Shown here one piece after another: positions 15,857 to 62,577 of a stretch of 64,000 nucleotides of DNA. Position 1 is the first letter of the stretch. Each line of letters starts with the position of its first letter. Location of the stretch: the NCBI GenBank assembly GCA_018873225.1, contig JAEILZ010000007.1, positions 310,001 through 374,000 of the forward strand, read 5' to 3'. The notes under the pieces are model-generated. The model was not told where the DNA came from. It worked only from the letters and a program-made list of their open reading frames with translations, and did not search any database. Made by a program: the position numbers and the translations under genes. This DNA comes from [Phialemoniopsis] sp. UDSM-2020 (Eukaryota > Ascomycota > Sordariomycetes > Thyridiales > Thyridiaceae).

Positions 15857-17488
15857 TTAATTTAACTTGAATGCTACATACTTCTCGGCAGCAACCTTGT
15901 CGCACCGAGTCCTAAACTGAGTGGCCGTTCCGTTGTATCGCGCCACAGTCCGGACCTGTTTACCCTCAATGTTCGTGTTGATCCCAGTCATCCACGAGTC
16001 CACTTTGCTAGAAAGTGCTCCCTCCGCGCAGTCAAACACGTGTTGTGTCCACCAATCCACGCCCTCGGCGGTGGCCTCGACGCGATGGATCCCCTCGCTG
16101 TGGCAGTACTCGATGAACTCGCTGACCCAGTCGACAGCATATTCGATGCTTCTTGGGGTGTTTCCGAAGATCTGGTGTGGACCCATGATCATGAAGAGGT
16201 TCGGAAAGTTTTCGACCGTCATTCCTAAAAAGGTCCTGGGGCCATGGCTCCACCAGTCTTTAAGACTGGTATCATTGACGCCTTTGATGTCGATAGCATC
16301 GTACGCTCCAGTGATGGCGTCGAATCCTGTCGCATAGATGATGATGTCCAACTCAATGTCTTCTGTGCTTGTCTGAATACCGTGCTCCGTGATGCGTTGA
16401 ATGGGCGTCTCCTTGAGGTCGACGAGCTTGACATTTGGTTGGTTGTAGACTTCAAAGTAGAAAGTCTCGAGCGGAAGTCGTCGCGTTCCGAAGCCGTGGT
16501 CCTTCGGAATCAACTTCTCGGCTGTCTTGGGATCTTTGACGCGCTCCCTAATCTTCTTGGCGAAGAACTCGCTCACTGCGTCGTTTGCCGCTTCATCCGT
16601 GAATATGTCTCCAAAGTTACTGAGCCACTTTGCGAAGCCTGGCTTGGCATACAGCTCTTCCCAAAAGACCTCTCGCTCCTCGGGTGGCACACTGAGCGTC
16701 TTCCTGGGATCTGCTGCGTGGACAAAGCAGGACGGCGTCTCTTTGCAGCGCTTGAAGATCTCTGGGTAGCGAAGTCGTATTGAGGCCATCTCCTCGACCG
16801 AGATCTCTGTGTTGCGAAGAGGTGCGCTCCAGTTCGCCGTACGCTGGAAGATAGTCAGAGAGCCAACTTCTTTGGCAATCGTTTGGATGGTCTGAATCCC
16901 AGTAGCCCCCGTTCCGATAACGCCAACCCTTTTGTTGCTCAGGTCGACAGGCTCGTGCGGCCATCTGGAGGTGTGGTGCGAAATGCCTTTGAAGTCCTTG
17001 ACTCCTGGGATATTCGGAAGTGTAGGAGTATTCAAAGGGCCCAAGGCGGTGATGAGAAATCTTGTAGTGTACCTCTTTCCTTTGGCGTCAGTCAGCTCCC
17101 AGGACTGGCTGTCTTCCCTGTAATGTGCAGATTTGACGAGCGTATCGAACTGGATGTCTCGACGAAGGTCGAATTTGTCGCATATGAATTGGATGTACTT
17201 CAACGTTTCTGGCTGAGGCGAGAAGTGCTCCTTCCAATGCCACTCGTCAAGCAGCTCTTGGGAGAAGGACAGGCCATAGGTATAACTCTCGGAATCGAAC
17301 CGAGCTCCTGGATATCGGTTCCAGTACCAGGTGCCTCCTTCGGCCGGAGCCACCTCGAGCACCTTCACGCGCATCCCTAGTGCTCGCATGCGTATGAGGG
17401 CATAACAGCCAGACAGTCCGGCGCCAATGATCAAGACTTCATGGTCAAGACCAGGCGCCATGTCAGTGTGTGGAGGAATGTTATGCAT
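15857..17488 (-). CDS. Baeyer-Villiger monooxygenase (FAD/NADPH)
   Basis: This is an intronless gene of 543 residues. The FAD-binding motif GAGLSG lies at about 22-27 and is followed by the GGTWYWNRYPG signature at 51-61. The Baeyer-Villiger fingerprint FxGxxxHTxxWP is present as FKGISHHTSRWP at 166-177, and the NADPH motif GTGATG at 192-197. All type I features are intact. The enzyme inserts oxygen next to a carbonyl, giving an ester or lactone. I chose the ATG at 17488. The ATG at 17560 lies only about 35 bp from a TATA-like sequence (minus strand, near 17595), which leaves almost no leader; 17461 is a third option. It is divergent from the MFS gene and convergent with the esterase gene. 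Confidence 0.93.
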   Translation of the reverse strand: MHNIPPHTDMAPGLDHEVLIIGAGLSGCYALIRMRALGMRVKVLEVAPAEGGTWYWNRYPGARFDSESYTYGLSFSQELLDEWHWKEHFSPQPETLKYIQFICDKFDLRRDIQFDTLVKSAHYREDSQSWELTDAKGKRYTTRFLITALGPLNTPTLPNIPGVKDFKGISHHTSRWPHEPVDLSNKRVGVIGTGATGIQTIQTIAKEVGSLTIFQRTANWSAPLRNTEISVEEMASIRLRYPEIFKRCKETPSCFVHAADPRKTLSVPPEEREVFWEELYAKPGFAKWLSNFGDIFTDEAANDAVSEFFAKKIRERVKDPKTAEKLIPKDHGFGTRRLPLETFYFEVYNQPNVKLVDLKETPIQRITEHGIQTSTEDIELDIIIYATGFDAITGAYDAIDIKGVNDTSLKDWWSHGPRTFLGMTVENFPNLFMIMGPHQIFGNTPRSIEYAVDWVSEFIEYCHSEGIHRVEATAEGVDWWTQHVFDCAEGALSSKVDSWMTGINTNIEGKQVRTVARYNGTATQFRTRCDKVAAEKYVAFKLN

Positions 17489-17739
17489 CTTTGATGAAGG
17501 GAATCCAAAAGCAGAGCAATGGTAACAGACTACAGTACACAGAGCGGTGGAACAAGTCAAAATGCATGTAAGACAAGGAACATTCTCTGCTCTTATATCT
17601 GGCGTAGTAATTGTTCCCTCTCAAAATCCGCCAACGAATCAGCCAGAATGCTCTCGTGAAGGCGACTTCGGCTTACGGGTCTCATCACCGACAACACAGG
17701 GGCGCCCGACTAGAGTCTTGAAGTTGGCGCTAAGCACCC

Positions 17740-17977: not shown

Positions 17978-18108
17978 CCTGAGAAGAGTCCAGCTCCTCA
18001 AATGCCATCTTCCTTCTTAATCAAGCCACTACCACCCTAGACTAATTCGTTGTTTAGAACCTCACTCGCCAGAAACCTTCCACCTCTCGCTCAACTCGTT
18101 CGCCCTTC

Positions 18109-20335
18109 ATGTCCGCCAAAGACGATAACAAAGACGTAATTACGACCACGCCGTCGTTGCGTCACGTCGAAAACGATGTCGAGCTACAAGACCATCGCGA
18201 CAAAGCCACGGCAGTCCTCGATCAAGCCGCCGGCGATCGTACAATTCTAACACCGGAGAATAACGCCAGGGTGCTGCGCCTCATCGACAAGCGAATCCTT
18301 CCCATCATACTGGGCATCTACTTCTTCCAGATCCTCGACAAGGTAGCCTTGTCATACGGCTCGGTTTTCGGCTTGGTCGACGGCGCCCATCTCGTTGGGA
18401 ACCAGTACTCCTGGCTCAGTGCCATTGTCTACATCACGCAGCTTGCTTTGCAGCCGCTTGTCGCCTTCCTCCTCGTCAAGGTCCGAGTCACCCACTTCTT
18501 GGCCGTGTCCGGGATTGGTTGGGGAGGAGCACTTGCGTGCATGGCAATCAGACAAGGATTCAAGACCCTCATTGTTTGCCGGATGTTTCTTGGGCTGTTT
18601 GAGGCTGGCGTGGGTGAGTGTTGTGTGCTCATGGTCTCGTGGATGAACTACCGCTAACAAATACGATGCCAGCTCCGTGCTTTATTGCAATTACACAGAC
18701 CTGGTGGCGGCGCCGTGAACAACCTCTGAGGCTGTCTGCGTGGTATGCAATGTTTGGTGTTACGAACATGGTAAGACCCAAAGGGACGGAGGGTTGCCGC
18801 TCTGGATAGCGAGGCTGACGTTGAGTCTTCAAAGATTGGCAGCTTGATTGCCTGGGGTCTTGGTCATATCGGGTCCTCGGTCTTGAGGCCTTATGAGGTA
18901 TGCAAAGCCACCGCCTTGCGTCTGGGTTGCGATCTTGAATTCAAATATGTTCTAGATCATCTTCCTCTTTTTCGGCACCTGCACAGTTGCATACAGCATC
19001 ATGTTCTGGTATGTGACGATTCCTCCTGAGTCTAGCTTCTGGAGTCAAAACTCATCATTTCTCTTTAGGTTCTTTATGGAAGATTCGCCATTGACAGCCA
19101 AGTTTCTGAAGGGCGAAGACAAGCTCGTCGCCATCGAGAGGTAGGCTTTGATACCTACTTTGGACCTCATAGATACACTGACATTATATGCAGACTCCGT
19201 GCGAATCAGCAGGGCATTGAGAACGACGTCTGGAAGAAGGAGCATGTAATGGAGGCGTTCCTGGACCATGAAGACATGGTTCTGGGGCTTGATGATGTTT
19301 GCCATCTCGTAAGTCCCTCGTATTTGAACCCCCCCAACCAATCAGATGAAATTGACAAAGTTCAGGGTTCCATCGGGCGGCATCGGCAACTTCGGTCCAC
19401 TGCTTGTCCAATCATTCGGGTATACCGGCTTACAATCGGTTCTGTTCAACATCCCATTTGGGGCCATTCAACTCATTGCGACTTTTGGTGGAGGGTATCT
19501 CGCTACAAGGTTCAACATGAAGGCTCCTGTTCTCTCCGCTATGTGCATCCCGCCCATCATCGGCTGCGTAATGCTCTTGGTGTTACCTAGAGGGCCAGGC
19601 CACCAAGGTCCTCTGCTCGCGGCTTATTATTTGGTGCGTCTGTTTCCTTCAGATTATCATTTTGTCTTCTTATTAATGATGACCAGATCTCTCTATATCC
19701 TGGAATAAGTAAGTCACCTTGACGTCGAGGAGAGTCGACTCTGAGTCTGACGATACATAGCACCGCTCATCTACTCTTGGTCCGCTGGTAACACAGCAGG
19801 AGAGACCAAGAAGAAGGTTACGACTGCAGTACTATTTGCCTTTCAATGTGGCGGTAACGTGAGTTGTTCCAGTCACGCCCAGTCGACCCTGCTTGCTAAC
19901 ACCCTCGCTTCAGACCCTCGGGCCCAATCTATATACCACTGCAGAAGCACCAGAATATCGCCGAGGACTGTTATCCAAGTAAGGTTCTGGGACATGACAC
20001 GTATCAAGTGTACTCCTTCTGACATATTTGCAACAGTCTTGTTCTGTTCATCGTGCTTATAATACTATTCGGGTAAGCAGTTACGGGCCAAGCTTGTTGC
20101 TTGAGAGTACACGACTAATCGGACATCTAGTCTCCAATGCCTGATTCTGGCGCGTCTCAATCGATCGAATGCCAAGCGGCGCGTGGCCCTTGGCTTGCCC
20201 GAGGTACTGGAGGATCTTTCCATGCGGAAAGTTGATGGTAGCTACGACGGGTCCAAGGTGGATGGAGCGATCGAAGGCCACGGGTTTGAGGACAAGACCG
20301 ACTTGGAGAACGAGATGTTCATATTTGTCTACTGA
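18109..20335 (+). CDS. MFS transporter, Dal5/allantoate permease-like (ACS family), with frameshift in exon 6
   Basis: This is a plasma-membrane proton symporter family for organic anions. Twelve exons: 18109-18613, 18673-18770, 18835-18897, 18956-19008, 19069-19140, 19194-19308, 19366-19633, 19687-19708, 19761-19858, 19914-19978, 20037-20072, 20131-20335. Family hallmarks include the RVLRLIDKRILPI start of helix 1, ILDKVALSYGS, WRRREQPLR, and YSWSAGNTAGETKKK. Exon lengths sum to 1600 nt, one over a multiple of three. The conflict lies within exon 6. The frame is clear up to the EAFLD segment, and another frame is clear from KTWFWGLMMFA, so the shift is near 19262-19268 and no splice choice avoids it. 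Read literally, the gene is broken in mid-protein; a sequence error in a short C run would also explain it. The rest of the reading frame is well kept, so any loss is recent. Confidence 0.85.
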
Positions 20336-47140: not shown

Positions 47141-49171
47141 TTACAATCGTTCTTTCTTGGGCTCAAGAGTCGCATTTGCCAGTCGCACTTCCAGCACTGC
47201 TCCCACTCCTTGACGGACTGATTCCACAGCCTTGGGGAGAAGGTCTCGAAGCTCTTCCTGAGTGTAGGCAAGACCGGCCCACAACTTGCCGCCGGCTGCC
47301 GCCTTGGCAATTCCACTATAGTCAGGAGAGGGCTCGAAGCTCAGATGTAGTTCCTCGTTGGTCAATCTGCTAGCTGGACCGTCTGGGTGGACGTTCAGAA
47401 GAGACATCCTCGGCGCGTTCCAGCCTGTGCACCTATCAGTACCACTGATGTAGACACGATCAGGCAAAATGCAGAGTCGAACTTACCTTTGTTGTTGAGA
47501 ACAATTGTCAACGTCGGGATTTCGTACCGACGCGCAATCCAATAGACGGTGCCAGGCACACTGAATAGATATGTCCCATCGCCGACGATCTGGCAAACAA
47601 ACTTTCCCTTGCCTGCTTGCTGGTTGAGGCTCTCTAGGGCAAGCTTGACACCGAGAGAACCTCCGCCAGACCAACCAAGGCCTCCTCCTCCACAGTTGAT
47701 CCAACAGCCTGGCTCATCCACCTGGAGTTGGTCTGCCACGGCAAAGGTTTGAGTGACCGCTTCCACGCAGAATACGGTATCACGAGGCAACACCTCACGG
47801 GCTTGTGCGATCACGTATGGCGTCGATAATAGACCGGACTCCAGGGGCTTTGCTTGATCCACGATCGCTTTCAATCTCTTAGCATGGGCCTCGCCTAACT
47901 TATCCCAGCGTTCGGCGCGCTGTTGAGAGGCAAGTATCGCGCTAAGCCCCTGATCCCGAGCGATGTGCTCGTTGATCTGTCGGAGGGAAACAACAGCATT
48001 GGCAGGGTATCGCTGCTCGGCGGGAATGTAGAATACCGGCATTTGTCTCTTGAGCACGTCGATATCAATGTGCACAATCTTGGCGTCTTTCCTTGGTTTG
48101 CAGCGACTGGTAATGAATGGTACATCGCAGTCAATGACAAGAATAAAGTCTGCCTCCGTCACAGAAGGCTCGACACCGAAGCGCATACCGAGCGAGCCCC
48201 TGTGACTAAACGGGAAGCAGAGATCGCAGCCGCCAGTGTCTAGCACTCGGAGGCCTTTGACTGCGTCTGCCAATTTGACAAGTTCTGCAACAGCAGCATG
48301 GTCCCGGCCAGAGTAGCCTGTGATTACTAGTGGCCGCTCGGCCTCGACCAGGGACTTGGAGATATCCTTGACCGCTTCGTTGGGTAACCCAGCAGGCTGC
48401 GCAGGAAGCCAATGGGCCATGTCAAGAGAGTAGGGCTCAACTGCCTCTTCTAGGAGCTCGCGTGTTGCAACTAGGTACGCCGGGCCGCGAGGCTCGCTGC
48501 TTGCAACCTGTAACGCACGTGTGACAACTTCTTTCACATTGTGGCTGTTGCGGAGCTCGCCGGTGTAGCGGCAATACTGCGCCACGATCTGTTTCTGATC
48601 CGGCACGTCTTGAAGCCAGTGGATGTACTCCGTGCGCGCGCCGACAACACCGCGCTCTAGGGTGCACGGACTGAGGCCAGCAAAGATGAGGACAGGTGCT
48701 CGGCCAACACTGGCATTGTGTACCGCGGCCGCAAGAGCCTGGGTGCCGACATCGACGTGGACGATTACACATTGTGCTTTCCCGGTTGCGCGTGCGAAAC
48801 CATCGGCCATAGAGAGCGCGACCATCTGGACCACATGAGTTTAAAGCTCTGTCATGGTAATATGCAGGAGGCTCACTTCATTAGGACAAGTGATGATACG
48901 CGGGAAACGACCATCGTTTCTGCTTTGCCCTTGCGCAATGGCCTCTAGTATCGCGGGATGGTCGCTGCCGAGGTTCACGAAGCAGTGTGTCACTCCAAAC
49001 TGTCCGGCTTAGTTAGCCGTCGAAACTCCGGTCTGTCTTTGAAGTGTGACATCTTGCCTCGTATATCGCGTCAAAGAACGCAGAAGCGGCCGTATACGCC
49101 CTGATGAGTTTACGGGCATTGTTAGTAAGGGCATGTTAGGGGGGTATGCTTGATCTTGTTCTGACATACAT
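47141..49171 (-). CDS. ThDP-dependent enzyme (acetolactate synthase / benzoylformate decarboxylase-like)
   Basis: Minus-strand exons are 49171-49170, 49100-49058, 48999-48877, 48825-47487 and 47424-47141, giving 596 residues. The N-terminal ThDP domain has the FVNLGSDHP motif and the catalytic Glu at about 56 (TCPNE), and the central domain is intact. The C-terminal ThDP/Mg motif is GDG at 471-473 with Asn-Asn at 500-501. The start codon appears split: AT in exon 1 and G as the first base of exon 2, across an intron with a perfect TACTAAC branch point. A stop lies six codons upstream in that frame, and no other in-frame Met precedes the conserved motifs. The second intron has a GC donor. It decarboxylates or ligates 2-oxo acids by family. 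It lies beside an FMN 2-hydroxy-acid dehydrogenase on the same strand, so a 2-oxo acid from that enzyme is a plausible substrate. Confidence 0.88.
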
Positions 49172-49582
49172 CTTGAAATACAATATCCTTCACTACAGTG
49201 ATAGCAAACGGCATGAGAAAAGGCGTTAAGGCGTGTTTTCCTGACGAGATACCCCAGATTCGGAGGTATGCTGGGGTTGCAACCGACTGGGTGGGTACAA
49301 CAACGGTGCAAGTTCTTTGCGAAAGATTAGGCCGAGTGGACCTCTGAGCACTGGCGGCACAACTTATCACTAATGGCAGGACTGACGCGTGATGGCTGGA
49401 ACACTTCAAGTTACTCGGCCATGATTTTGATGTCAATGCTCCATTGCACAATCTCATGTGTACAGATAAACAAGAATTTCTTAAAGTATACACGAAGTCC
49501 GTGGCGCGGGCAAATTTACGCATCAAGAGATATGGTATGTGGCCTATAATGCATGACTACTACCCATATTATGACAATATTC
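49172..49582. other. Intergenic region
   Basis: This is promoter of the ThDP enzyme gene plus the 3' flank of the flavocytochrome gene. No exon was seen. Confidence 0.5.
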
Positions 49583-51240
49583 TCAAAGTCTACTTGGCTT
49601 TACCGACTGTCTAAGAGGCGTCGGCAGCATCTTTGGTAGCTGTGCCTCCAAGAGGCTGGTATTGACATAGCTCGGATTGAGATCCTCCAACTTTGTAACC
49701 CCGAGTAATCTCAGAGTGGTGTCAACTTCATCGGCAAGAACTGCTCACGAGTCAGCCATCTCGTCTGTATTTGTAAATACCAAGTAAACAAGCACTTACT
49801 ATCAATAACCTTCTCGACGCCTGCCGTGCCGTAAGCACCCAACCCGTACATGAAAGGTCGTCCGACACCAACTCCAGTTGCGCCAAGACACAAGGCTTTG
49901 ACAATGTCAGCACCTCTCCGCGCCCATCCGTCTACGTATATCTCGACGCGTTCCAAGATATCAGGCCTAGTATGCCGGATCTCCAGCAGAGTCTGAATAG
50001 AGCTAGGGGCGTCATCGCACTGACGGCCTCCGTGGTTACTCAGGTATATTGCGTTGACGCCGGTATCTGCAGCAAGTGCAGCATCTTCGACTGTCTGAAT
50101 TCCTTTCAGTATCAACGAGCCCATGTTCGGCCCCCAGGCCTCCCGGATCCAGTCAAGGTCGTCCCATGTCAAGCTTGGAGAGTGATGCGCTCTCGGTATC
50201 GGCGGGTTCGCTGGGTCACCCTTGTCGACATTCCTGTACGTGACAACGGGAGCGCCAGTCTTGTATTCCATCTCGGCTTTCAGTCTTTCGTCCTCTTCCC
50301 TCTTACCGATCACCGGTGCATCCACCGTAATCACAAGAGCTTTGAACCCAAGATCTCTCGCCATTTTGATCATTGCCACGCTTTTGGCCTTGTCCTTTGC
50401 CGGGTATAGCTGGTATACCAGGCTTCCCCTGTTCGTTCCCGAAGTCTTTGTACTGCAACACGCCATCAAGTCCGCATGTGACACGGACGTGTAACTGCTT
50501 GCGCAGTACGGTATGTCTCTTGACACAGCTCCTTCTACCAGACATTTCTCGCCTTCTTTGTTCACGATTCCTGCTCTTGCTGCCGGAGCGATGAAGAACG
50601 GCAGACTGCTTTGCTGTCCAAACATTACGCATTTCATGTTCAGTGTTTTCACGTCTCGAAGAACACGAGGTCGGAGAGAGATCTTCTGCCAGTCCTGTTG
50701 GTTATTCCGTAGTGCACCTAGTCCGCCAGCCGCTGAATGAAAGTATGCCCAAGCCCGCGGACTTATTGTTTTTGAGGCTTGCCTCTCAATGTCATCTATC
50801 GAGATGCAGAGAGAAATAGTCGCTGGATCTATTAGCCCTAAATCGTGCTTTGGACCAGGCGCTTCTTTGTTCGATAATGGTGATCCTGACGGTTTAACCT
50901 CACCGAGAAACTTGACTGAGTTGCCACAGATCAGCCGACACGGCCAGGAAAAGCCCTAGAGATGATGTTATACGCACCTGATGGCCTAGGCCTCTCGATA
51001 GTGCCCTCGGCATGAGTGTCTTCATACTCAGCAGTTGCATCCTGTTGTCTTTGTCAGGCTAGGGAGTCCCACTTTGATATTCGCGAGGATATAACATACC
51101 GTTCCACCATACTTGAGAATTGACTCTGCTCCGCCGGGGTGGTCTTCCAAGAACTCTGTCATATCATAGACTTTGTTCCGAACGATGACCCAGCAGGATG
51201 CCGGGCTATCGTGCTGGCTCACCTCCTGCTCGGTGAGCAT
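49583..51240 (-). CDS. Flavocytochrome b2-like FMN 2-hydroxy-acid dehydrogenase
   Basis: Minus-strand exons are 51240-51100, 51041-50978, 50915-49800 and 49740-49583, giving 492 residues (exact sum). Residues 1-65 form a cytochrome b5 domain with heme ligands H34 (HPGG) and H57 (EDTH), split by an intron. The FMN TIM barrel follows, with PFFIAPAA, a VYQLY tyrosine, ITVDAP, LKGIQ lysine and the catalytic His at about 363 in LSNHGGRQ. Enzymes of this type oxidise L-lactate or L-mandelate to the 2-oxo acid and pass electrons to cytochrome c. No mitochondrial presequence precedes the chosen ATG; the frame is open a further 46 codons with a hydrophobic stretch, which could be an alternative start. 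Neighbouring genes suggest an aromatic 2-hydroxy acid. Confidence 0.92.
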
Positions 51241-51908
51241 TGTTGTAAAAGTGTGTGCTGGAGTCCTGTCGACGATGTGATGTAGAAGAGAGGCCCAATA
51301 AGATACAAAGAGCCACGTGAGCAAGCCTTGCCACCAAACTGTGGCAGGTGTGGGGTGAAGAATATGACTGCAGGCCAAGGACAGAGTACCGCATACTGCG
51401 ACCGAGAAGCTCTACTTCGACCAATTATTGAACGCCTCTAGATCGACCTTCAGGCGTATCATCCTAACCAGGAATCACATTTGCTTTTCTTTGCCTTGCC
51501 GCTGTTTGGCTGTTGCCATACGTGTCCCACAAAATTCTTGGTGTACAGGGGGTAGCGAATCTTTCGCCGAACAGAAACGTTCCTCCGGCTTCGTACCCCA
51601 AGGTCCGGGCGCGCATTACTCCGTGCTGCGGGCATGTTTACTTCAGAGTCCTTCCCCGCACCTAACTAGTTCGCTGCTTTCCGAAATAGGTCTTCGTAGT
51701 TCCGATGTAGTATCATTGAACGTTGTTCCGCGTCGATCATTGGGGATGCACACCCGAAACAGGGTGGACGCCATTGGCCCTCCGATCGTGGTCGCCGCAC
51801 TTATGAATGCCTGTTAATATTGAGAAAGCCTCTCATTATCTGAGTGGCTGTTAGCAGCTGATCACATAACCCCTGCTCTTCAGACCAGTTTTTGAAGTCA
51901 CAACAACC
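51241..51908. other. Divergent promoter region, flavocytochrome / FAD monooxygenase
   Basis: This 668-bp spacer lies between head-to-head genes. No exon was found and no clear TATA box. It probably holds shared control sites of the catabolic cluster. Confidence 0.45.
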
Positions 51909-53341
51909 ATGACATCAAATCCGACGAAACCTCTTATCATCATCGTAGGCGCAGGCCTAGGCGGACTCGCTGCCGCCATTGCGATCGGTCGAACCGGCCA
52001 ATATCGCGTCCAGATTCTCGAGGCAGCTCCAAAAATAGCAGAGGTTGGCGCTGGCATACAGCTGTCGCCGAACTGCTCCCGGCTTCTGATCCGATGGGAT
52101 TGCGTGAAGTTCCTCAAGGACAGCGTCGTCGCTCCGCGCAACGGCCGAGTCCGGCGGTGGCAGAACGGAGAACTCCTCGCAGATCGCATCATGAACCCGA
52201 GGGCGGAGGAGACGTTTGGTGCGCCGTACTGGCATGTGCACCGCGCTGACTTTCACGAGGCGCTACTGAAAAGAGCCATCGAGCTGGGAGCAGACTTGCG
52301 AACGAACGCGTTCGTCACGAAGACACAGGCAGGGAACGAAACCGGCCGGCCGTCAGTAACTTTGGCATCTGGGGAGAGTTTGGAGTGCGATTTTCTCATT
52401 GGCGCTGATGGTATTCGCTCGAGTGTCAGGGAGTCATTATTCCCCGACTTTGCAGCCCCCACGCCAGCTGGTGATCTGGCGTATCGATTCACACTACGAA
52501 CCGAAGACATGTTGAACGATGAGATCCTTGTGCCTTTGGCAGAGACGCCAGACACACACAGTTGGTGGGGTCCTGGAAAGCACGTAGTTGGGTACATGCT
52601 GCGAGGCAAGTTGATATACAACGTCGTGGCTGTGTTTCCGGACGATGGGTCGCTCGGAGAGGCTGCTCGGGGAGACGGTAGTCTTGAGCAGCTGAGACAA
52701 ATTTACGAGGGCTGGTGTCCTCAGTAAGACTGAATCTACATATTATTTCAAGTGAAATTTCTAACAGCTAGCAGGGTACAAAGCCTCTTGAACAAAGCCC
52801 AGTCAAACGACATGGTCAAGTGGAAGCTCATGGATCTACCACCCCTGGAGAAGTGGAACCAGGGCTGCTGTGTTCTACTTGGTGGTATGTAACAGCGGTA
52901 AAGACAAACTACAGTGCTTAGGGGACTGACACTACCATCTCAGATGCCTGCCATCCGATGCTACCTTATCTGGCTCAGGGAAGCGCGCAAGCTATGGAGG
53001 ACGCGGCTTTCCTGGCTGAATGTCTGAAATATCTGCCCGATCACATGGAGCTCGGAGCTGAACTATATACCAAGTATCGCAAGCCGCGAGCTACTAAGGT
53101 GCAGCTCTTCTCCAGAGAACAAAGGTCCAGGAATCATTTGCCAGACGGACCAGAACAACAAGATAGAGATGCAGCCATGAAGAACCCATCTCGCGTATCA
53201 AATGCACATGTGTGGACATGGGACGCAGTAAACGGTGAGCCACCGAAGGATTGGGCTACGGGTCTGCACGGATACAATGCTGAGGAAGAGGCCATACGGG
53301 CTCTGATTTCAGAAGGTGTTCTTGATAAAAGCGCTACATAG
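51909..53341 (+). CDS. FAD-dependent monooxygenase, salicylate hydroxylase-like
   Basis: The exons are 51909-52723, 52775-52884 and 52944-53341, giving 440 residues. It has the GxGxxG FAD motif (IIVGAGLGGLAAA, about 11-23), an EVGAGIQLSPN segment, the DG motif in GADGIRS and the GD motif LLGDACHPMLPYLAQG joined across the second intron. Together these define group A flavoprotein hydroxylases of the salicylate/6-hydroxynicotinate type. It uses NAD(P)H to hydroxylate an aromatic acid, often with loss of the carboxyl group. It is head-to-head with the flavocytochrome gene and in tandem with the carboxylesterase gene. The substrate is not shown by the sequence. Confidence 0.92.
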
Positions 53342-53642
53342 TAGCTGGAACCAAACCACATTCATAGTCCCCTGCGATCTACTGGAATCCGAGCATCGGT
53401 GACTTCAGTCGTATTTACTATGACTCTTAACGGCATAGGCGTGAACGATGTACAAGTGATAGGACGTTCGGGGATGAATTGACCCGTAGAAGGTCTTTCC
53501 CACGGACCAATACTGTATACAGTAAGTGGAGACAATTGTACACTTGATATAGGGGACTTCAAGTGGTCAACTACAGGCACTGCGTGGACTTGTTCACTGC
53601 ATGAAGACCTACAACTAGTGACTTCCATCGTCGTCTTTCAGC
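53342..53642. other. Intergenic region
   Basis: This is a 301-bp spacer between co-oriented genes. Nothing beyond a likely promoter was seen. Confidence 0.4.
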
Positions 53643-55545
53643 ATGCCACCTATTCCAAGAGAGATACCGGGTTTAGGCACCGCGACCACAAGTATCACGT
53701 ACTGTGGAGGCACTGTCGCTCAATTTCGGGGCATTCCTTATGCAAACGTTGAACGGAGGTTTGAGCAACCCAGACTCTGCGAGGAATGGGAGGGTGGGAA
53801 GCTTGAGGCTAGCAAGTTCGGGTTCGTCTAAACTGCATACAATGCTTCGTATGTGACTGTGCATTGGAAGCATAACAAGAGTCTAGCCCAACATGCCCAT
53901 GTCCTCCGTCACCATTCAAACTGGTAGGAGCAAAGCTAGACGTCCCCGAGACCGACATACCAGCGCCTGCAGATGAGTTCAAATGCTTGAACCTGAACAT
54001 AACCACGCCGGTCAATACCGGTGATGAGGCACTCCCGGTGGTGGTTTATCTTCATGGGTCTTTGCCCTCTGACTCCATTTGACTCTGTTGGTTTCTAACA
54101 CTATGTTCCTAGCGGTTCCAACTGTGTTTCCTCAGGTAGCACGCCAGGATACAACGCTGGCGCACTAGTGGGATTATCCGTTCAACTTGGTCATCCTATA
54201 ATTGCTGTCACAATCAAGTAGGTATTCCATTGTATCACCCTTCTCAAAGAAGCAGCCCAAGAAGCTCACGCCTACTGTAGCTATCGTCTTGGGGCGTTCG
54301 GATTCATGGCATCTGAAGATATCAGGGCAGACAATCACGAGAGGGGATACCAAGGAGTCGGCAACTATGCTTTGTATGACCAGTACACGGCCTTCAAATG
54401 GGTCAAGACCTACATCGCGGGATTTGGTGGCGACCCTAAGCGGATCACCGCGATGGGCGAATCTGCCGGAGCAAGTAAGTTTGGACCACCCTAGCATCAT
54501 GACCCAACTGTGCAGCGGTCGGGCATAACCGTTTACACCTAGGTGACTTGCATGTCTTGATGATGTCGCCTTTGTTGCGAACTAAGGCGCTCTTCAGCCA
54601 AGCTATCGTCCTGTCCGGAAACGCAGTACTAGGTAGCCGCGAGCTCGTGCATCAACAACACATTTACGACAAGGTCTTGGAGAAGCTGCAGATCCCATCA
54701 AACTTACCATCGAAAGAGAGACTAGCAAGGCTACGGAGTGTCAGTCCAGAAGATCTTACGTCCGCTTATGCCTGCCTGGGCGCTCCCGTCCCGAACTGGC
54801 AGGCGACCGTCGATGGCGTTTTTCTCGACGAGTTGCCTACGTGTAAGAGCTTGTCTAGTCAGGCTTATGCATCGTCAATCAGTCGGGTCTTGGTAGGCGA
54901 TTGTGAACAAGAGGTTCGTCTCACCTCCATCTTTTACCCGTGTGGTCCACTCTAACCTTCATCTAGGGGATCTTCTGGGCCGGACGGATCAAGCAAAAAC
55001 AGTGGACCTTGCCCAATGTACTGCAAGTGCTGCGCAAATACTTTGATTCGGGCGAAGTTGATGAGATTGTGCACCAGTACGGCCTCACTGATGAAAACCT
55101 TGTTTCAAAACTCATCAAGTTCTGCAGCGAAGCGGAATTCAGACAGCCTCTCTATGAGCTGGCTTCCAACTGGAAGAACTCAGACGCTTTCCACTACCAT
55201 ATGCGCTTTGTTAACCCGTTCGACAGTCTCTTCAAGGGATCTGCGCATCATGGTGTCGACCTGCTCTTCTTTTTCCAGACATATAACCACCTGCTGCCTG
55301 AGACTCATGCAGTTGCAGCAAGGGAAATGGGGAAGCACTTCATTGAGTTCGTATGTGGACTTCCTCCATGGAGCTCCTACCGTGTCACAAATGGTTTCAT
55401 GAGCTATGGTCCTGAGTCCGTCGCCTTGATCAATCAAGATGCTGATGAGTTTGGTCGACACCAGATCTTGGTTGGAGGCATGGGCTGGGACAAACTTACG
55501 GCTTGCAGCCGTGAGTTTCGTGGTGAGAATGTGCACACAAAGTAG
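53643..55545 (+). CDS. Carboxylesterase type B
   Basis: Exons are 53643-53821, 53887-54057, 54113-54217, 54281-54474, 54543-54913 and 54967-55545, giving 532 residues (1599 nt). It has the KFGPTCP cysteine region, a CLNLNI segment, the oxyanion loop HGGSN (instead of the common HGGG) and the nucleophile elbow GESAG with Ser about 213. A VDLLFFF acid region and a histidine in AHHGVDL complete the set. There is no obvious signal peptide, so it is probably intracellular, unlike many secreted members. The first acceptor was chosen at 53886 because other AGs lead to stops. It could release an aromatic alcohol or acid from an ester that feeds the cluster. It is convergent with the oxygenase gene. 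Confidence 0.9.
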
Positions 55546-55705
55546 CCAGGCAAATAGTATACTTTACAACAAGTCAATATGAAAACAATCCTTGATGCAC
55601 TTGGTTATGAGATGACACCCTTTTGAAAGTCGAATATCGATCACTCGTGAGACAACTGAATAATCTTTGCTCGAATGGATACACCGTTCCGGGAATTTAG
55701 TTACA

Positions 55706-56716
55706 CTACTTGGACATGTGCTGCATTCTGCGTACCATCCACTCGCCCGCAGTGTAGACCTTTTCCTCGCCGACCTTGCCACCAACAGCTACAACGGGCT
55801 CATCTCGATATTTTTCAACCGGCTCCATCAATACGTCATCCGCCGGACGAAGGAAGTACACAAGACTATACCGGTCGAACTGACCCTGGACCCCTGGGGC
55901 AGGTACGACGCGGTGCTTGGCCGACTTTAGGTGGCCATTACTGAACTTGACCATCGCATCTCCGAGATTGATAATGGCGCAACCCGGCATGGGCTTGACG
56001 TAAGCCCACTCCCCTTGCTTCTCGGGGTCGTGGCTCTGGATTTGCAGACCGCCGAGCCAGTTGAACAAGACGGTGACGCTGCCGAAATCAGTATGAGAGG
56101 GTAGACCAATCGCATTCTCTCCCATGTTGGGAGGCTTCTTGGTGAGCCGGATGTGGTCTCCCGACAGCGAGCCGATCTTGTTCTTGTCGGCGAAGGCGTC
56201 AGTCGGAAGGCCCATTTGTTTTGCTAGTATGCGAAGAACTAGAATGCCCAAGGCGTGGGAGTCTGTGGCGAAGGACTTGAGCTCCTCCCATCGCTTCAAG
56301 AGTTGCTGGGGGTATGTTCGTGACTCGAAATTGCCCAGCAGGTGGTCTTTGGCGACGTTGAAGAATTCTGTAGCGTCTGGTCGAAGGTCTTTGTCTGTTT
56401 TCTTGACCGACCCCGCCGGTTTGTACCCAAACATCGACTTGCCCTTCTCCGCACGAAACTGCATCTTCTCCTCTAGGGGTAGCTCGAATGCTTCCCGTGC
56501 ATATTGGAGAAGATTCTCTGCCTTCTCAAGAAGGGCCTCGCCATTGGGATGGTCGGTGAGATTGAGATAAAAGAAACCGTCGGTTTGGACAGCTGTTGTA
56601 GTTCGGGCTAGCTCGTTCGCGTCAGATGCAGCGAGCTTTGCATATGAGATCTGCGCGATGGGCACCGTGATTACATCGTCAGGGAAAGGAGGAAGGTTGT
56701 CACTCTGAGCGCTCAT
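55706..56716 (-). CDS. 2-oxoglutarate/Fe(II)-dependent oxygenase
   Basis: This is an intronless gene of 336 residues from the ATG at 56716; the frame is open to 56851, which would add 45 polar residues. The N-terminal DIOX_N domain (VPIAQISYAKL, DGFFYLNLTDH) is followed by the jelly-roll core with the Fe triad H208-x-D210 and H268, and R282-x-S284 for 2-oxoglutarate. All cofactor residues are present. It resembles isopenicillin-N-synthase-like and gibberellin-oxidase-like fungal enzymes that hydroxylate or desaturate small molecules. It is convergent with the carboxylesterase gene. Confidence 0.92.
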   Translation of the reverse strand: MSAQSDNLPPFPDDVITVPIAQISYAKLAASDANELARTTTAVQTDGFFYLNLTDHPNGEALLEKAENLLQYAREAFELPLEEKMQFRAEKGKSMFGYKPAGSVKKTDKDLRPDATEFFNVAKDHLLGNFESRTYPQQLLKRWEELKSFATDSHALGILVLRILAKQMGLPTDAFADKNKIGSLSGDHIRLTKKPPNMGENAIGLPSHTDFGSVTVLFNWLGGLQIQSHDPEKQGEWAYVKPMPGCAIINLGDAMVKFSNGHLKSAKHRVVPAPGVQGQFDRYSLVYFLRPADDVLMEPVEKYRDEPVVAVGGKVGEEKVYTAGEWMVRRMQHMSK

Positions 56717-57296
56717 GGTGTCTGATCGGATTTGTTCCCGATTGGTGTTGTTCGTCTCAGGAGTGCGAGGTTGTATGATGGGGCTGTGACGATTGTGCTC
56801 GTTCAGGCCCTGCGTCGCATGATAGCCTCCAAGTGAATAGATCGGACTCATCTAGTGGTATTCTAGCTCATGGTGTTCCCTGGTGTCCACTATGACATGA
56901 TGAATTTGTTACCATCGGCTGCTAAGGCCGAATGAGTGCATCAATGTCGTTTCCTAGTAGGAGGTGCAACGGGCCAATCTTCGGCCGAGACTGGCAGCAC
57001 CCACCGGTCCATTGCTCTACCCCCAAACGGTCGAATATCAATGCGGAAAACCACCCTAAGATGCTAGATGCAGGTACCTTGAGGAATGCGCACTCAAATA
57101 ACATACACAGAAGGTGCCAGCAGTCAAGTGCCTTTCCCTGATCACAGCCAGTGACGGTAGAATAGGAATAAGTAGTTTAGGGAACATGTGCTCTTCACTG
57201 AGTAGAAGAAAGCTATTGCCCCAAAAGAAACCTCGGAACGATGGATCCCGAATACAGACATACGGGTTGTAGGGCCCGCTGTACAGAATCATTCAT
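56717..57296. other. Intergenic region
   Basis: This is promoter of the oxygenase gene and 3' flank of the aldolase gene. No exon was recognised. Confidence 0.45.
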
Positions 57297-58115
57297 TCAG
57301 TCTAAGTAGTCATTCTTACATTCAACAGCCATCAGCTCAAACACAGGTCGCCCATTAAACCACCCTGCCCTTGCACTGCCCACTTTCTTGTGCGTGTTTT
57401 CAGCATCCACGTCGTCAACACAAACCGATGAACCCCCTCGAGCGCAAGCAGCATCGTTCAACAACTGAGTATGGCAAAGTCTTTCCAGTGAGATGAACCA
57501 GAAGGTAGCCGCCTCCACTGTACCAGCCACGGTCAACAGGCCGTGATTCTGTAGAATGCATGCCTTCCTCGGCCCCAGGGCTTTTGCAATGTTCTCTCCC
57601 TCCTCTTTGGCCAGAACCACACCCTTGAAAGACTTGTACACGGCCAAGTCGTTCCAGAACGCGCAGGCATCCTGGTTGACGATGTCAACTCCCCTTCCCC
57701 ATGCGGAGAATGTGCGACCATAGAAGCTGTGAGCATGCGCCGCGCAAATCACGTCCGGTCTCTGTTTGTGGATCTCGGCATGGATGGCATACGCTGCGAG
57801 GTTGAGTAGCCGGTTCTCTCCGCCACCGATGACCTTGCCGTCGTGATCGACAAGTATCAAGTCCGATCTCTTGATGAGGCTGAACGGCATACCAAAGGGG
57901 TTCACCCAGAAAGTATTGGGATCGACCGGATCTCGGAGAGTGATGTGCCCTGCAACACCTTCGTCGAAGCCATACTTGCCGAAGATTCGAAAGGCCAACG
58001 CCAGGCGGCCCTGAAGATATTCCCTCTCCTCGTATTTGTCGGCAAAACTGGGGATGGTGGGAAACTTGCCCGAACTGACGGTCTGCTCGCCGGGCTTGAT
58101 CTCCAGATCTGACAT
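57297..58115 (-). CDS. Class II aldolase/adducin-domain protein
   Basis: This is an intronless gene of 272 residues. It shows the class II aldolase fold, with GHITLRDPVDP, a WVNPFGMPFSLI segment, the zinc motif HAHS (in ICAAHAHSFYGR) and the later LQNHGLLTVAG histidine. Fungal members often carry an N-terminal tail like this one. By family they catalyse retro-aldol or decarboxylation steps on 2-keto or 2-hydroxy acids, though many have no defined substrate. In this cluster it could cleave a ring-opened product. It is divergent from the dioxygenase gene across a 539-bp promoter. Confidence 0.9.
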   Translation of the reverse strand: MSDLEIKPGEQTVSSGKFPTIPSFADKYEEREYLQGRLALAFRIFGKYGFDEGVAGHITLRDPVDPNTFWVNPFGMPFSLIKRSDLILVDHDGKVIGGGENRLLNLAAYAIHAEIHKQRPDVICAAHAHSFYGRTFSAWGRGVDIVNQDACAFWNDLAVYKSFKGVVLAKEEGENIAKALGPRKACILQNHGLLTVAGTVEAATFWFISLERLCHTQLLNDAACARGGSSVCVDDVDAENTHKKVGSARAGWFNGRPVFELMAVECKNDYLD

Positions 58116-58654
58116 TGCTGATTGTTGTCGGAGTAGCGTGCGTGACTGTAGCTGTATCGTTCGTTGCCGTCTCGTTGTCGTTGACTCGGAGAGTCTGATC
58201 TAACTTTCCAACTTGTACTGCTCACGATGACGGAAACGCCTTCGGCTTCGCGGGATGCTAACACATCAGCGGATGTTTCTATATCTGCCGTGCCACATCA
58301 CCACAACTAATCATTCGGGGAAGGTAGGTTTGTAAGGGTGCTGTCCCCACCCCCACAGAGTGACCCTAGCGGATAGCTTACCCCGGAAACCTTAGCCTAC
58401 AGTATGGGGCCGGGGTAACATTACAGCCCCATCGCTCAAACATTGTCCCACGGTATTGACATCTAGTCTCTGGGGGGATCTTAGTGAAAGGCTTGAACGG
58501 AGTCAGGTATTATAGACCAAGGTCACGTTTCTTGAATCGACCTTTCACGGTGAATAAGAACGCCTTGGTACCTATTTCATAGTGCTAGGACAATCGATCG
58601 ATGAAGTCTAACCTACTGACGTTGTCATCGTGAATCGTTGAAAGTAATCTCAAG
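58116..58654. other. Divergent promoter region, aldolase / HGO-like dioxygenase
   Basis: This 539-bp spacer lies between head-to-head genes. It contains the inverted repeat listed at 58378 and short G/C-rich runs. No exon was seen. Confidence 0.5.
58378..58418. promoter_or_regulatory. 9-bp perfect inverted repeat in divergent promoter
   Basis: TTACCCCGG (58378-58386) is matched by CCGGGGTAA (58410-58418), separated by 23 bp. Each arm holds a CGG/CCG triplet, compatible with a dimeric Zn2Cys6 regulator such as the one at 60378-62577. Binding is inference. Confidence 0.4.
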
Positions 58655-60319
58655 ATGGCAGACACGCCACAGACACCTCAAGTACTCTTCCACTATACCG
58701 ATTCACAGCCGACCAAGCCCACTCGGGCAGAAGATCCCTTTGACTACCAATGCGGATTCGGGAACCACTTCCAGTCTGAACTGATCTCAGGTACTCTGCC
58801 ACAGGGCCAGAACCACCCGCACATATGTCGATTCAATCTTTATACGGAGGTCCTGACCTCTTCGGCATTTGCCGCACCCCGACACGCAAACATCAGCTCG
58901 CACCTGTACCGATGTCGACCTAGCTGTGCCATTGGTCGGTTCATCAGAGTTCTATAAGCTTGACTTCGCGTGCTAAAAGTCCGATAGGCGGTCAGGTGGA
59001 CGTTGAAACCAGGTCCGCGTGGCAAAGCTGTTTCCTGTCCATGAACCCAAAGGTCAAGTCTATCAGCTCGCAGGCCGAATGGGCCCCATTCGAGTTGCCC
59101 ACCGAAAGGACCGACTATATTGATGGCATCAAGACCATTGGTGGTAGCGGCGATGCCAATCTCCGAGACGGCATCGCTCTGCACATCTATGCCATCAATA
59201 CATCCATGGAACGCCGAGCCATCGTCAATGCGGATGGCGACTGCATGATAGTGGCCCAGCTCGGTCATATCATCCTACAGACTGAAATGGGTCGATTATA
59301 CCTGCAGCCGGGCGAGCTCGCTGTGATACCAAGAGGCATCAGATATCGTGTGGTCCTAGTTGAAGGCTATGAGCAAGCTCGTGGCTACATGATCGAGCTA
59401 TACGGGTCGCGTTGGGAGCTCCCGAACCTTGGGCCGATTGGCTGCAATGGTCTTGCGAATCCACGGGATTTCCTGACCCCTGTAGCGTACATTGACGAAA
59501 AGCTAGATGAGGATTGGCACGTCTTCACCAAGATCAACGGTAGCTATTCCGTCCACGTCCAGGATCATAGCCCCTTTGATGTCGCAGCCTGGCACGGCAA
59601 CTGCGTCCCGTACAAGTATGACATGACCAAGTTTGTCAGCATCGCTTCCATCTCAGTCGATCATACAGATCCGTCAATCTACACGATACTCACAGCAAGG
59701 TCGAGAGACCCAGACACACCTCTCGCGGACTTCCTGTGGTTCGGTCCGCGGTGGGATGTCGCGCAAAACACGTTCCGTCCTCCGTTCTTCCATCGCAACG
59801 CAGCTTCCGAGTTTCTGGCCAATATCTACTCTAGCACAGCTGGCGGTCGTTCGGCTGGTTTCCGGCCGGGCGGTGGTAGTTACGAGGCGGGTCACATTGC
59901 TCATGGAGGATACTCGCAACCATACCTGACCGAGATGAAGAAGATGAAGAACGAGCCCAGGGTGCTCTCCTCAGGTATGTGTCCGGAACCGGCAACTAGA
60001 ACAATCAGGAGAGCTAATTGGGTCAATTTAGGGTCTCTTACCTTCATGTTGGAGAGCAGTAGGTCTTTGCTCTTCACGGAATGGGGGGCGTCGTCCTGCA
60101 AGCAAGAAGCAACAGATCCTACTGTGTGGAAGAACTTCCCGGTAAGTTCCAATATCCATCCAATACAATTCAGACTACTCATAGACTCGACAGGATCGTT
60201 TCAGTACCAATCCAGCAGTACGTCAATTATTGCAAAAAGTGAAGGACAAGCAAGAGGCAAACAAGGCTGCTGATGAGTTGTTCCATGACGATGACCGCAT
60301 TGCAGCGTTAGGTAATTAA
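58655..60319 (+). CDS. Homogentisate 1,2-dioxygenase-like protein
   Basis: The exons are 58655-58934, 58988-59974, 60032-60141 and 60194-60319, giving 500 residues (1503 nt). It has the N-terminal CGFGNHFQSE motif, AFAAPRH, the GELAVIPRGI cupin strand and LGPIGCNGLANPRDF, all typical of the family. Iron ligands appear as H362, E368 (FHRNAASE) and H399 (GHIAHGG). The family opens the ring of homogentisate. The first intron (53 nt, branch CTAAA) restores frame but removes the usual RPS-x-x-H histidine context. The alternative is a one-base deletion at about 58931, after which the other frame reads His next. It diverges from canonical enzymes in several places, so the substrate may differ (for example gentisate- or hydroxyhomogentisate-like). 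It is convergent with the regulator gene, 58 bp away. Confidence 0.87.
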
Positions 60320-60377
60320 GTAATCGACACAGTAAACAATAGACAGTACAAGACGTGGCTTTGTTGAACAAGTACTA

Positions 60378-62577
60378 CTAAATGCTCATTTGCTCGCTAT
60401 CCTTGCCGAATTCCCAGGGGACAGAGGTCCAGTTCATGAAATTTCCAAATACAGAATCATCTAGCGTATCAAATAAAGGCATCGTCAAGTCGTCCATAGC
60501 GAGATCGTCGTCTATGGTTATCTGCAAACTATCCTGTTCGGTATGTCGTTGATGTGATGCCTGCCTTTCTTGATTGTTGATAGTCCCGCTCGCGACCAGA
60601 ACAGCTGCAGGCTGCCGAGGCTGGGTTGCCTCGTGATCCGGTGTCATCGGTTCGAACTTTGTGAGTGGCTCGGTAAACATCATGGTGTTGGACTGGATGC
60701 AAGCCACATGATTGAGCATTTTGTCTGCCAGCGAGCGGTGTTAGTAAGTTGCTGGGACGGCAGATTATTCCAGAGTTACATGATTACATTGTAGTCCCCA
60801 ACATTTCCCGAAAGAGAGAAGACACTTGATCAAGAGGTCAGTGTCGCGACCCTTGTAGTGACCTTTCTGCTTAGTAAGCTCCAACAGGCGAACACGGCCA
60901 GCGAGGAGTAAACAGTGCGGCAACATGTAGTTGCCGAGGTGCGGCTGATCCTGAAAGCTGTGGGCAGTGTCGAGTATTTCTTCCGCGTGCAGGGATGATC
61001 GCTGTTGCGAATAACGATGGAACTCTGCGGCATGTTCGGATCCAGGAGAGCCAAAGAGTAATAAGCAGGCGCTGTGAGTTGATCAGCAGTTACCATAGAG
61101 TCTGTGTGTTGAGGTGAAAATCCTTACCAGTGAGCTAGACATAGGGAAGTGGGATCTAGCATGCGCTCATCGCCGACAGGAAACTCCTGATCCAGAGTAG
61201 CGGGAAAGCTTTGTATGAACTCCTGGATCTTGGAATACAGCTCCCGTATCTCCTTTTGGTACAGCTGGGCTTCACCTCTTCGAGGCGATTGCTTGATCTC
61301 ATTAACGGATGCGAAGAGGCCTTGGACTTGGATAAATCGAGAGAAAGGCCCCAAGGAGCTACAGTGATCCAGCTCGGTTATCGATTCGGTCGCGGGGCGC
61401 GCAGGGCCCTGTCAAGGTGACTCAGTGACTTATCTTCATATTCGCGAACAGGTGTAATAATTGCTTACTATTGCAACCCAATCATCGTTGCTTACTGGTA
61501 GGAGCAACTTGATGTGAGTCCTGGTCGGAACGCCAAACTCCCGCTCTCTGATTGTCGATATCCAACGGGACAGAGATAGTATCATCAACACGACTCGACG
61601 ACGGCCTTCCTCAACGACCCAATTCTTGGGCTTGGGTAGCCATTGACACGACGAAGAAAGCTTCTTTTCGTCCATTCGGAAGAGCTGGAACGCGCTGACC
61701 AGCGCAAGAGCCGATCCTAGTGTTGTCAGCGCGTTCAGTGCAGTACTGGGTTGCCCAATCTCGTAGATCGCAAGCAGCGTCATGGATATCAGCGTGTCCA
61801 TGTTGGGGGAGAGTAGTGTGCTGCTAGTCGTCTGCTTTGCGAGGCTATACAGCGTCTCTGACATGTGTGCCAGACCCGGATCATGCCTGCTGGCTAGCGC
61901 GAACATGGCCAGCTTGACGTGCAGGTTGTTTTGTGTCAATCGAAACCTCGTGGGATGTATTATCGGTACGAACGGATAACAACTCGAGAAGAATAGTGAA
62001 TGTCTACAAGAGTCAGGTTTTTCCATAATTGCTGTCTTCGCTGCGAAGACCTTACAGCTGGGTTTGCTCGTCTGCAGTTGCTTGCGTTTGAAAGAACACC
62101 GCAGCCGCCTCGAAAGGATCTTGCATGGAGATCCGAAGATCAGATTTGGGCGACAATTGAGGGTCGACGAGTATGCTCGACTGATCATAGCTGAGCGGAG
62201 ATAGTATAGGTTGTTGTGCGCCGTCATTAGCTGCGTCCTCTCGCAACCTGCCCTCCAGTACTGCTTTCTCTCGCTGGAGTTCACCTGTTGGAACTGTAAG
62301 ACAACTGGACCAGGAACAGATCGCATAGATGATGCGAGATCAACATACGTATCTTGGCTTCCAGACCCCTGACATAGCCCCTCGGCAGCCCAGTCTTCTT
62401 CGTATCGGCATACTTGCAGGTGGAGGAGGCGGCTAGGCATTGAGCACAAGCCGGGCGGCCCGTGTCACACCTGACCTTCTTTCGTCTGCATTCAGTGCAG
62501 GCCTTGGATATCGTTCTTTTTTTGCCGCCTTCAGTGCTCCTGAGGGAGACCTCCGAGTCCGCGGGTGGGCCGGCCAT
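60378..62577 (-). CDS. Zn2Cys6 transcription factor, likely regulator of the aromatic cluster
   Basis: Minus-strand exons are 62577-62349, 62284-62056, 62003-61469, 61408-61128, 61071-60788 and 60724-60378, giving 634 residues (1905 nt). The zinc cluster is CTECRRKKVRC, then CAQCLAASSTC, at about 27-54. A linker and a coiled-coil (LEAKIRELQREKAVLEGRL) follow, with the junction inside the coil at an intron. The fungal_trans domain starts near SCYPFVPIIHPTRF. The C-terminus is acidic, with a DDDLAMDDL stretch that could be an activation region. It lies at the edge of the cluster, the usual place for a pathway-specific regulator. Confidence 0.9.

Follow-up and report, generated by a model that had tools for sequence, protein, structure and literature searches.

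We analysed a window of 64,000 nucleotides from the ascomycete [Phialemoniopsis] sp. UDSM-2020 (contig JAEILZ010000007.1, positions 310,001 to 374,000; C9:310001-374000 in our numbering of this 44.2 Mb, 11-contig genome). It contains, at 47141–62577, eight intact genes that look like a set for degrading a plant-type aromatic acid. The reading that we favour, tentatively, is that this conserved fungal cluster would funnel a 4-hydroxymandelate-type 2-hydroxy acid, possibly 4-hydroxy-3-methoxymandelate, into the hydroquinone cleavage route typified by the dioxygenase MhdA; all substrates named are predictions made from sequence. The first-pass annotation had seen eight catabolic or regulatory genes side by side, and the coordinates, Pfam families and gene models bear this out. 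Each gene was assigned to a family by Pfam, six of the eight carry introns and none of the models has an internal stop; the interval runs from the stop end of the ThDP gene (47141) to the regulator's start codon (62577). The order is as follows.

47141..49422, minus strand: thiamine diphosphate (ThDP)-dependent decarboxylase, benzoylformate-decarboxylase-like; 5 exons, 598 amino acids (aa), first exon (MAE) uncertain
49583..51240, minus strand: flavocytochrome b2-like L-2-hydroxyacid dehydrogenase (cytochrome b5 + FMN_dh), the flavin mononucleotide (FMN) enzyme; 4 exons, 492 aa
51241..51908, no strand: divergent promoter region common to the FMN dehydrogenase and the flavin adenine dinucleotide (FAD) hydroxylase, from the gene models
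51909..53341, plus strand: FAD monooxygenase, decarboxylative vanillate/4-hydroxybenzoate 1-hydroxylase type; 3 exons, 440 aa
53643..55545, plus strand: type-B carboxylesterase; 6 exons, 532 aa
55706..56716, minus strand: 2-oxoglutarate (2OG) Fe(II) oxygenase; single exon, 336 aa, HxD...H present
57297..58115, minus strand: aldolase-II-fold non-haem iron oxygenase candidate (TqaM/NovR type); single exon, 272 aa
58116..58654, no strand: divergent promoter region common to the aldolase-fold gene and the ring-opening dioxygenase, from the gene models
58655..60319, plus strand: hydroquinone-type 1,2-dioxygenase candidate, annotated as like homogentisate dioxygenase (HGD), sister to the MhdA-like branch; 4 exons, 500 aa
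60378..62577, minus strand: Zn2Cys6 + Fungal_trans regulator; 6 exons, 637 aa

In the vanillate route of Aspergillus niger, VhyA hydroxylates vanillate and releases CO2, and the HGD-like enzyme MhdA opens methoxyhydroquinone (PMC8336404). The window dioxygenase carries both HgmA domains, with a strong Pfam match, and fell below the cut-off of TIGR01015, the HGD equivalog family (464.9 vs 510.75 bits). The same cut-off was missed by two proteins of the window type (P0001, 471.8 bits, and P0003), by the three MhdA-like rows scored out of the 21 in our tree (including P0008, 461.3 bits) and by all three rows of a third group. It was passed by the four HmgA-like rows scored (of 16 in the tree). 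The paralogs of the source genome that were scored were L001, L003, L004 and L005 (not L002): L001 (670.8 bits), L003 (627.1) and L004 (602.2) passed and L005 failed at 495.2.

The tree contained 49 rows: 43 hand-picked from the 120 homologs listed, the five own-genome paralogs and the window protein. The 500-aa model of the latter was settled by comparison with a Clonostachys protein, and the homolog search had used an earlier 502-aa model as query. The window dioxygenase grouped with proteins from Fusarium euwallaceae and Clonostachys solani (support 100/100), then with one from Cladophialophora carrionii (95/92), and this clade joined the 21-row MhdA-like group (100/99), apart from the 16-row HmgA-like group. 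L005 has a long branch; long branches meet between it and the own-genome group, and also among the groups near the third group, and these placements are unsure. The MhdA-like group contains an A. niger protein. P0008 was tentatively equated with MhdA on its identity of ~49% to three HmgA-like rows, vs the published 50.8% between MhdA and HmgA; its computed mass of 57.9 kDa is not an exact match to the published 55.5 kDa (PMC8336404).

All four rows of the window clade keep His335, Glu341 and His371, which in human numbering we take to be the HGD iron ligands. A Tyr at the position of human Tyr350, presumably a substrate contact, was found in 16/16 HmgA-like rows and 4/5 own paralogs (Trp in L005), vs none of the four window-type, 21 MhdA-like and three third-group rows; one MhdA-like row is gapped at His335, and for that row the register at the Tyr350 position is unsure. 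A true HGD identity was rejected on the missed cut-off and the loss of Tyr350, and the HGD analogy of the first-pass annotation is not supported. Sequence relationships place the ring-opening enzyme nearer to its counterpart in the vanillate pathway than to the HGD of the tyrosine pathway.

The genome has six HGD-family genes, L001 to L005 and the window gene. L003 and L004 each have a fumarylacetoacetase neighbour and every fumarylacetoacetase place in the genome lies outside the window, so homogentisate appears to be handled elsewhere in the genome. The cluster had also been said to lack maleylacetoacetate isomerase and fumarylacetoacetase. This stands for fumarylacetoacetase, since none of the eight genome places of FAA_hydrolase_N (PF09298) is in the window; the isomerase was not seen among the annotated window open reading frames (ORFs), and no family search was made for it. 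The lack of both is expected because the published MhdA/OmeA route uses neither (PMC8336404). At the other HGD loci the cluster is not repeated: within ~10 kb on each side, the search found only a FAD hydroxylase paralog (27%), in L014.

Three further observations concern this family. L005 adjoins a P450, an Abhydrolase_3 esterase and a major facilitator superfamily (MFS) transporter, and may be another ring-cleavage locus. L003 (C1:481870-482346 region) passes the cut-off, yet at human position 292 it carries Glu, in contrast to the His of the other aligned rows. The third HGD-like group (P0089, P0108 and P0075, from Cadophora, Cladophialophora immunda and Venustampulla), also under the cut-off, is linked to the same esterase family in 2/3 cases.

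The best solved match of the FAD enzyme was the Decarboxylative Vanillate 1-Hydroxylase 8x38 (E 3.9e-87, residues 5-389 of 440), followed by 8gsm, named 4-hydroxybenzoate decarboxylase (8e-86). The best salicylate-named chain was far weaker (4bjy, 1.9e-43), and a salicylate hydroxylase identity was rejected on this ground. The carboxylesterase keeps its Ser and His motifs in 10/10 aligned rows and the acidic stretch in 9/10 (a gap in P0122). Its close family comprises nine proteins of ~40-63% identity from few genera, a patchy distribution; beyond them the score drops from 379 bits to 228, and identity across most of the protein does not exceed 33%. The first-pass annotation had placed ester cleavage first in the pathway. 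This is doubtful: a role after ring opening is more plausible for the esterase, as for A. niger OmeA, a carboxylesterase that handles the ester product and whose gene adjoins mhdA (PMC8336404).

The aldolase-fold protein belongs, according to NCBIfam, to a broad class II aldolase/adducin subfamily. Its best match was 4xxf, named aldolase by its depositors (sequence 4e-71; fold 2e-27), and the next sequence matches were NovR and TqaM. By fold, 4xxf was followed by TqaM (3e-26), NovR (1.9e-25) and then pyruvic oxime dioxygenase, and true FucA came in at 8.5e-13 or weaker, so that TqaM and NovR are the closest characterised relatives; the search used the best of five models (mean pLDDT 87.7; the other four, 68-75). 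His127, His129 and His191 are invariant in 31/31 aligned rows; class II aldolases also bind metal through three His, and such a site alone separates neither class. Asn105 is likewise invariant in 31/31 rows and is Asn in NovR, TqaM (9n43) and 4xxf. We take it to be equivalent to Glu73 of FucA, presumably the catalytic residue, from a match to the FucA sequence made by eye; E73 mutants of FucA were among the fold-search entries. CloR and NovR use a three-His iron site to form benzoates from mandelate-type acids by oxidative decarboxylation (PMC13111500). Because of the closeness to NovR and TqaM in fold and sequence, the three His, Asn105 and the CloR/NovR chemistry, the protein is more likely to be an iron oxygenase with a hydroxy or oxo acid as substrate than a retro-aldolase. 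The retro-aldol cleavage first proposed for this gene is unlikely and was rejected as first choice on the weak FucA fold match and the closeness to NovR and TqaM.

The FMN enzyme has a cytochrome b5 domain fused to FMN_dh, which defines the flavocytochrome b2 family. It aligned with flavocytochrome b2 over residues 4-474 (E 6e-87) and keeps the motifs AWAY, TVDAP..G.RE, KG and SNHGGRQ. The best solved chains for the ThDP enzyme were benzoylformate decarboxylases (E 1.8e-20), and the two active-site residues that the alignment resolved, Glu and His, match (Glu47 and His70 in what we take to be the numbering of that enzyme). A partial ORF scored 103 bits vs the NCBIfam benzoylformate decarboxylase cut-off of 493, and we therefore call the enzyme benzoylformate-decarboxylase-like; its best NCBIfam match, to a general ThDP protein, also stayed under the cut-off (398 vs 456 bits). 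Four aligned relatives were 62-63% identical. Since its database relatives are spread across many fungi, the ThDP enzyme is, on present sequence comparisons, the least cluster-specific member. The 2OG oxygenase had weak solved relatives only. Together these results uphold the earlier proposal of a cluster for aromatic catabolism, in which a 2-hydroxy-acid dehydrogenase is paired with a ThDP enzyme that resembles benzoylformate decarboxylase; the retro-aldol step and the HGD analogy that had accompanied it are not supported.

Linkage in other fungi was deduced, in protein searches, from matching contig size together with the same species name, or from neighbouring locus tags. Parts of the set were linked in seven named fungal genomes and on one further contig.

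Clonostachys solani: dioxygenase, esterase and aldolase-fold genes on one contig (2,175,345)
Fusarium oligoseptatum: esterase CEP52_014920 and aldolase-fold gene CEP52_014918
Fusarium duplospermum: esterase CEP54_010502 and FAD enzyme CEP54_010503
Zarea fungicola: 2OG oxygenase g1907 and aldolase-fold gene g1908
Cladophialophora carrionii: dioxygenase and esterase on contig 3,111,086
Cladophialophora immunda: third-group dioxygenase CLAIMM_01453 and esterase CLAIMM_01455
Cadophora sp. DSE1049: third-group dioxygenase and esterase on contig 640,106
A further contig of 20,536 bases: FAD and FMN enzymes

This evidence is pairwise and covers six of the eight genes. Six of the nine close esterase relatives have a linked partner among the rows listed and three do not; the F. 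euwallaceae dioxygenase (P0001) has no partner among the matches listed.

Parts of the set also recur within the source genome. Of the five ThDP paralogs, two lie within 12 kb of one of the 22 FMN loci (expected 0.06, p=0.002), and two of five lie near one of the 20 best FAD paralogs (expected 0.05, p=0.0008). An FMN paralog lies near 2/14 aldolase-fold paralogs (expected 0.17, p 0.012), and the same test found no ThDP–aldolase-fold or FAD–aldolase-fold pair outside the window. Gene placement was taken as random, with the summed size of four unmeasured contigs divided equally and with five cytochrome b5-only places, FAD places ranked after the best 20 and the genes of the window itself excluded; these p values are underestimates if catabolic genes concentrate in particular regions. 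At C5:46000-65999 (L019, L020), a FAD hydroxylase paralog (41%) occurs with FMN and ThDP paralogs, an alpha/beta hydrolase, an aldehyde dehydrogenase, a regulator and two MFS ORFs, and this aldehyde dehydrogenase supplies the step missing from the window cluster. Linkage elsewhere and recurrence in the own genome indicate that the cluster exceeds a chance neighbourhood.

Two side observations were made at other loci. A UbiD decarboxylase and a UbiX-like flavoprotein are encoded at C7:388000-398999 (L021, L022) next to paralogs of the FMN dehydrogenase and the ThDP enzyme, a setting that suggests a cinnamate/styrene-to-mandelate locus. At C1:8544000-8553999 and C9:3527000-3546999, aldolase-fold paralogs adjoin FMN dehydrogenase paralogs.

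In the pathway that we propose, the flavocytochrome b2-like enzyme would oxidize the 2-hydroxy acid to an aroylformate, which the ThDP enzyme would decarboxylate to an aldehyde, to be oxidized by an unlinked aldehyde dehydrogenase. Alternatively or in parallel, the NovR/TqaM-type iron oxygenase might convert the hydroxy or oxo acid directly to the benzoate by oxidative decarboxylation. The FAD enzyme would then turn a 4-hydroxybenzoate-type acid into a hydroquinone and CO2, and the MhdA-related dioxygenase would open the ring. With a methoxy ring the product would be a methyl ester, which the esterase would hydrolyse toward 3-oxoadipate. The 2OG oxygenase may form the hydroxy acid by benzylic hydroxylation, which is a guess, and the Zn2Cys6 protein presumably regulates the set.

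Several observations weigh against this scheme. By score the FMN enzyme leans to the lactate type (6e-87; for its FMN domain taken separately, 1kbj, 6e-70), and the matches to mandelate dehydrogenase (7e-43) and 4-hydroxymandelate oxidase (7e-46) are weaker; an aromatic substrate is pointed to by the neighbouring genes, not by its sequence, and our confidence in the full scheme is lowered because of these scores. The top NCBIfam match of the FAD exon pieces was 3-hydroxybenzoate 6-monooxygenase (142 vs 459 bits, under the cut-off), an enzyme that does not decarboxylate, and no NCBIfam cut-off was reached by exon pieces of the FAD, ThDP or FMN enzymes. A ThDP decarboxylase and a NovR-type oxygenase in one set look redundant. 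The window dioxygenase branches beside the MhdA-like group, not within it, and in Fusarium, taking the species of P0001, P0031 and P0034 as one group, each species has one or the other dioxygenase type (P0001 vs P0031 and P0034); its substrate may therefore differ. The esterase is likened to OmeA by enzyme kind and setting, not by homology. Within the cluster we saw no transporter, no aldehyde dehydrogenase and no reductase. The cluster promoters share no motif beyond chance: at most three have one dyad spacing in common, a result reached by 127/400 shuffles, and no candidate for a common regulator site exceeded shuffled sequences. Among relatives, where conserved linkage had been looked for, it holds for parts of the set and was not shown for the ThDP gene or the regulator, for which the protein searches revealed no linkage outside the source genome. 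The C. carrionii aldolase-fold relative among the matches listed (P0255) is on a contig of another size than the dioxygenase and esterase, and Z. fungicola is among the rows listed for two cluster genes only.

A possible but doubtful alternative is an undescribed route, composed of a catabolic NovR/TqaM-type oxygenase that would convert hydroxymandelate or arylpyruvate to hydroxybenzoate, a new dioxygenase branch next to MhdA for a hydroquinone other than methoxyhydroquinone or homogentisate, and a dedicated esterase family linked to the dioxygenase superclade. Somewhat less probable is a variant vanillate/guaiacyl cluster, in which VhyA–MhdA–OmeA chemistry would proceed as in A. niger and the other genes would feed vanillate from another side chain or be incidental. 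The window holds the same three enzyme kinds, two of which are encoded side by side in A. niger; however, the vhyA and mhdA locus numbers of that fungus are distant (NRRL3_9897 and NRRL3_10111; PMC8336404), and the window dioxygenase forms a sister branch outside the MhdA-like group.

It is improbable that the genes form a small biosynthetic or detoxification cluster, in which the aldolase-fold and 2OG enzymes would serve the tailoring of a secondary metabolite or the detoxification of a plant phenolic, and the ring would not be opened for growth. NovR acts in antibiotic and TqaM in alkaloid biosynthesis, and the patchy esterase family would fit such a role. However, none of the eight genes encodes a core synthase (polyketide, non-ribosomal peptide or terpene), ring opening and a decarboxylating hydroxylase are degradative chemistry, and pairs of hydroxyacid dehydrogenase and ThDP enzyme recur beside an aldehyde dehydrogenase or a UbiD-type decarboxylase. 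A tyrosine/phenylacetate-type cluster with a true HGD, its isomerase and hydrolase borrowed from elsewhere, is very unlikely: the strong HgmA domain match would allow it, but the HGD cut-off is missed where three own-genome paralogs pass, Tyr350 is lost, and L003 and L004 already adjoin fumarylacetoacetase. Equally hard to credit is a chance neighbourhood of unrelated metabolic genes; catabolic genes do crowd in fungal subtelomeres and a common promoter motif is lacking, but parts of the set have neighbouring locus tags or common contigs in the seven named genomes.

The flanks differ from the cluster: a beta-lactamase-like gene lies 3.5 kb to the left, and NACHT and glycosyltransferase ORFs lie to the right of the window. 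Iron-type alcohol dehydrogenases, the Pfam family to which we take maleylacetate reductase to belong, occupy four genome loci, none of them in the window. Elsewhere in the window, a flavin monooxygenase (FMO/Baeyer-Villiger-like, 587-aa open frame, 15857-17620) lies near an MFS ORF (18058-18657).

If the favoured reading of a 2-hydroxy acid funnelled into hydroquinone cleavage is correct, the cluster suggests a dedicated fungal route from aromatic 2-hydroxy acids into ring cleavage, and aldolase-fold iron oxygenases may serve degradation besides biosynthesis. The name homogentisate 1,2-dioxygenase may cover many fungal proteins of hydroquinone-cleaving branches, and the cluster gives a clear genomic context in which to separate the two kinds; it is also a source of enzymes for lignin-monomer conversion. 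No published description of this gene set was found in the open-licence full-text literature, which omits most subscription journals, including in searches aimed at a fungal mandelate cluster; a methoxyhydroquinone pathway is mentioned in FAMeDB (PMC13094099).

Among known systems, the fungal tyrosine degradation (TD) and gentisate (GC) clusters (PMC3914699) share with the window a compact catabolic arrangement with a regulator and, in TD, an HGD-family enzyme. They differ in that hppD, hmgX, fahA, maiA, gentisate dioxygenase and fumarylpyruvate hydrolase were not seen among the annotated window genes, fahA (PF09298) being the one searched as a family. CloR, NovR and TqaM resemble the aldolase-fold protein in fold and in the three invariant histidines, and are its nearest characterised relatives, whereas the known members serve antibiotic or, for TqaM, alkaloid biosynthesis. 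The mandelate pathway likewise uses an FMN hydroxyacid dehydrogenase and a benzoylformate-decarboxylase-like ThDP enzyme; in A. niger, however, mandelate is reported to pass via benzoylformate, benzaldehyde and benzoate to protocatechuate (PMC12388069), whereas the window set would end in hydroquinone-type cleavage. The closest parallel is the VhyA–MhdA–OmeA route of A. niger, which has a decarboxylative FAD hydroxylase, an HGD-like 1,2-dioxygenase acting without isomerase or fumarylacetoacetase, and a neighbouring carboxylesterase. It differs in that here eight genes lie together, the dioxygenase is of a sister branch, the esterases are comparable by kind only, and the window adds a hydroxyacid dehydrogenase, a ThDP decarboxylase, a NovR/TqaM-type protein and a 2OG oxygenase.

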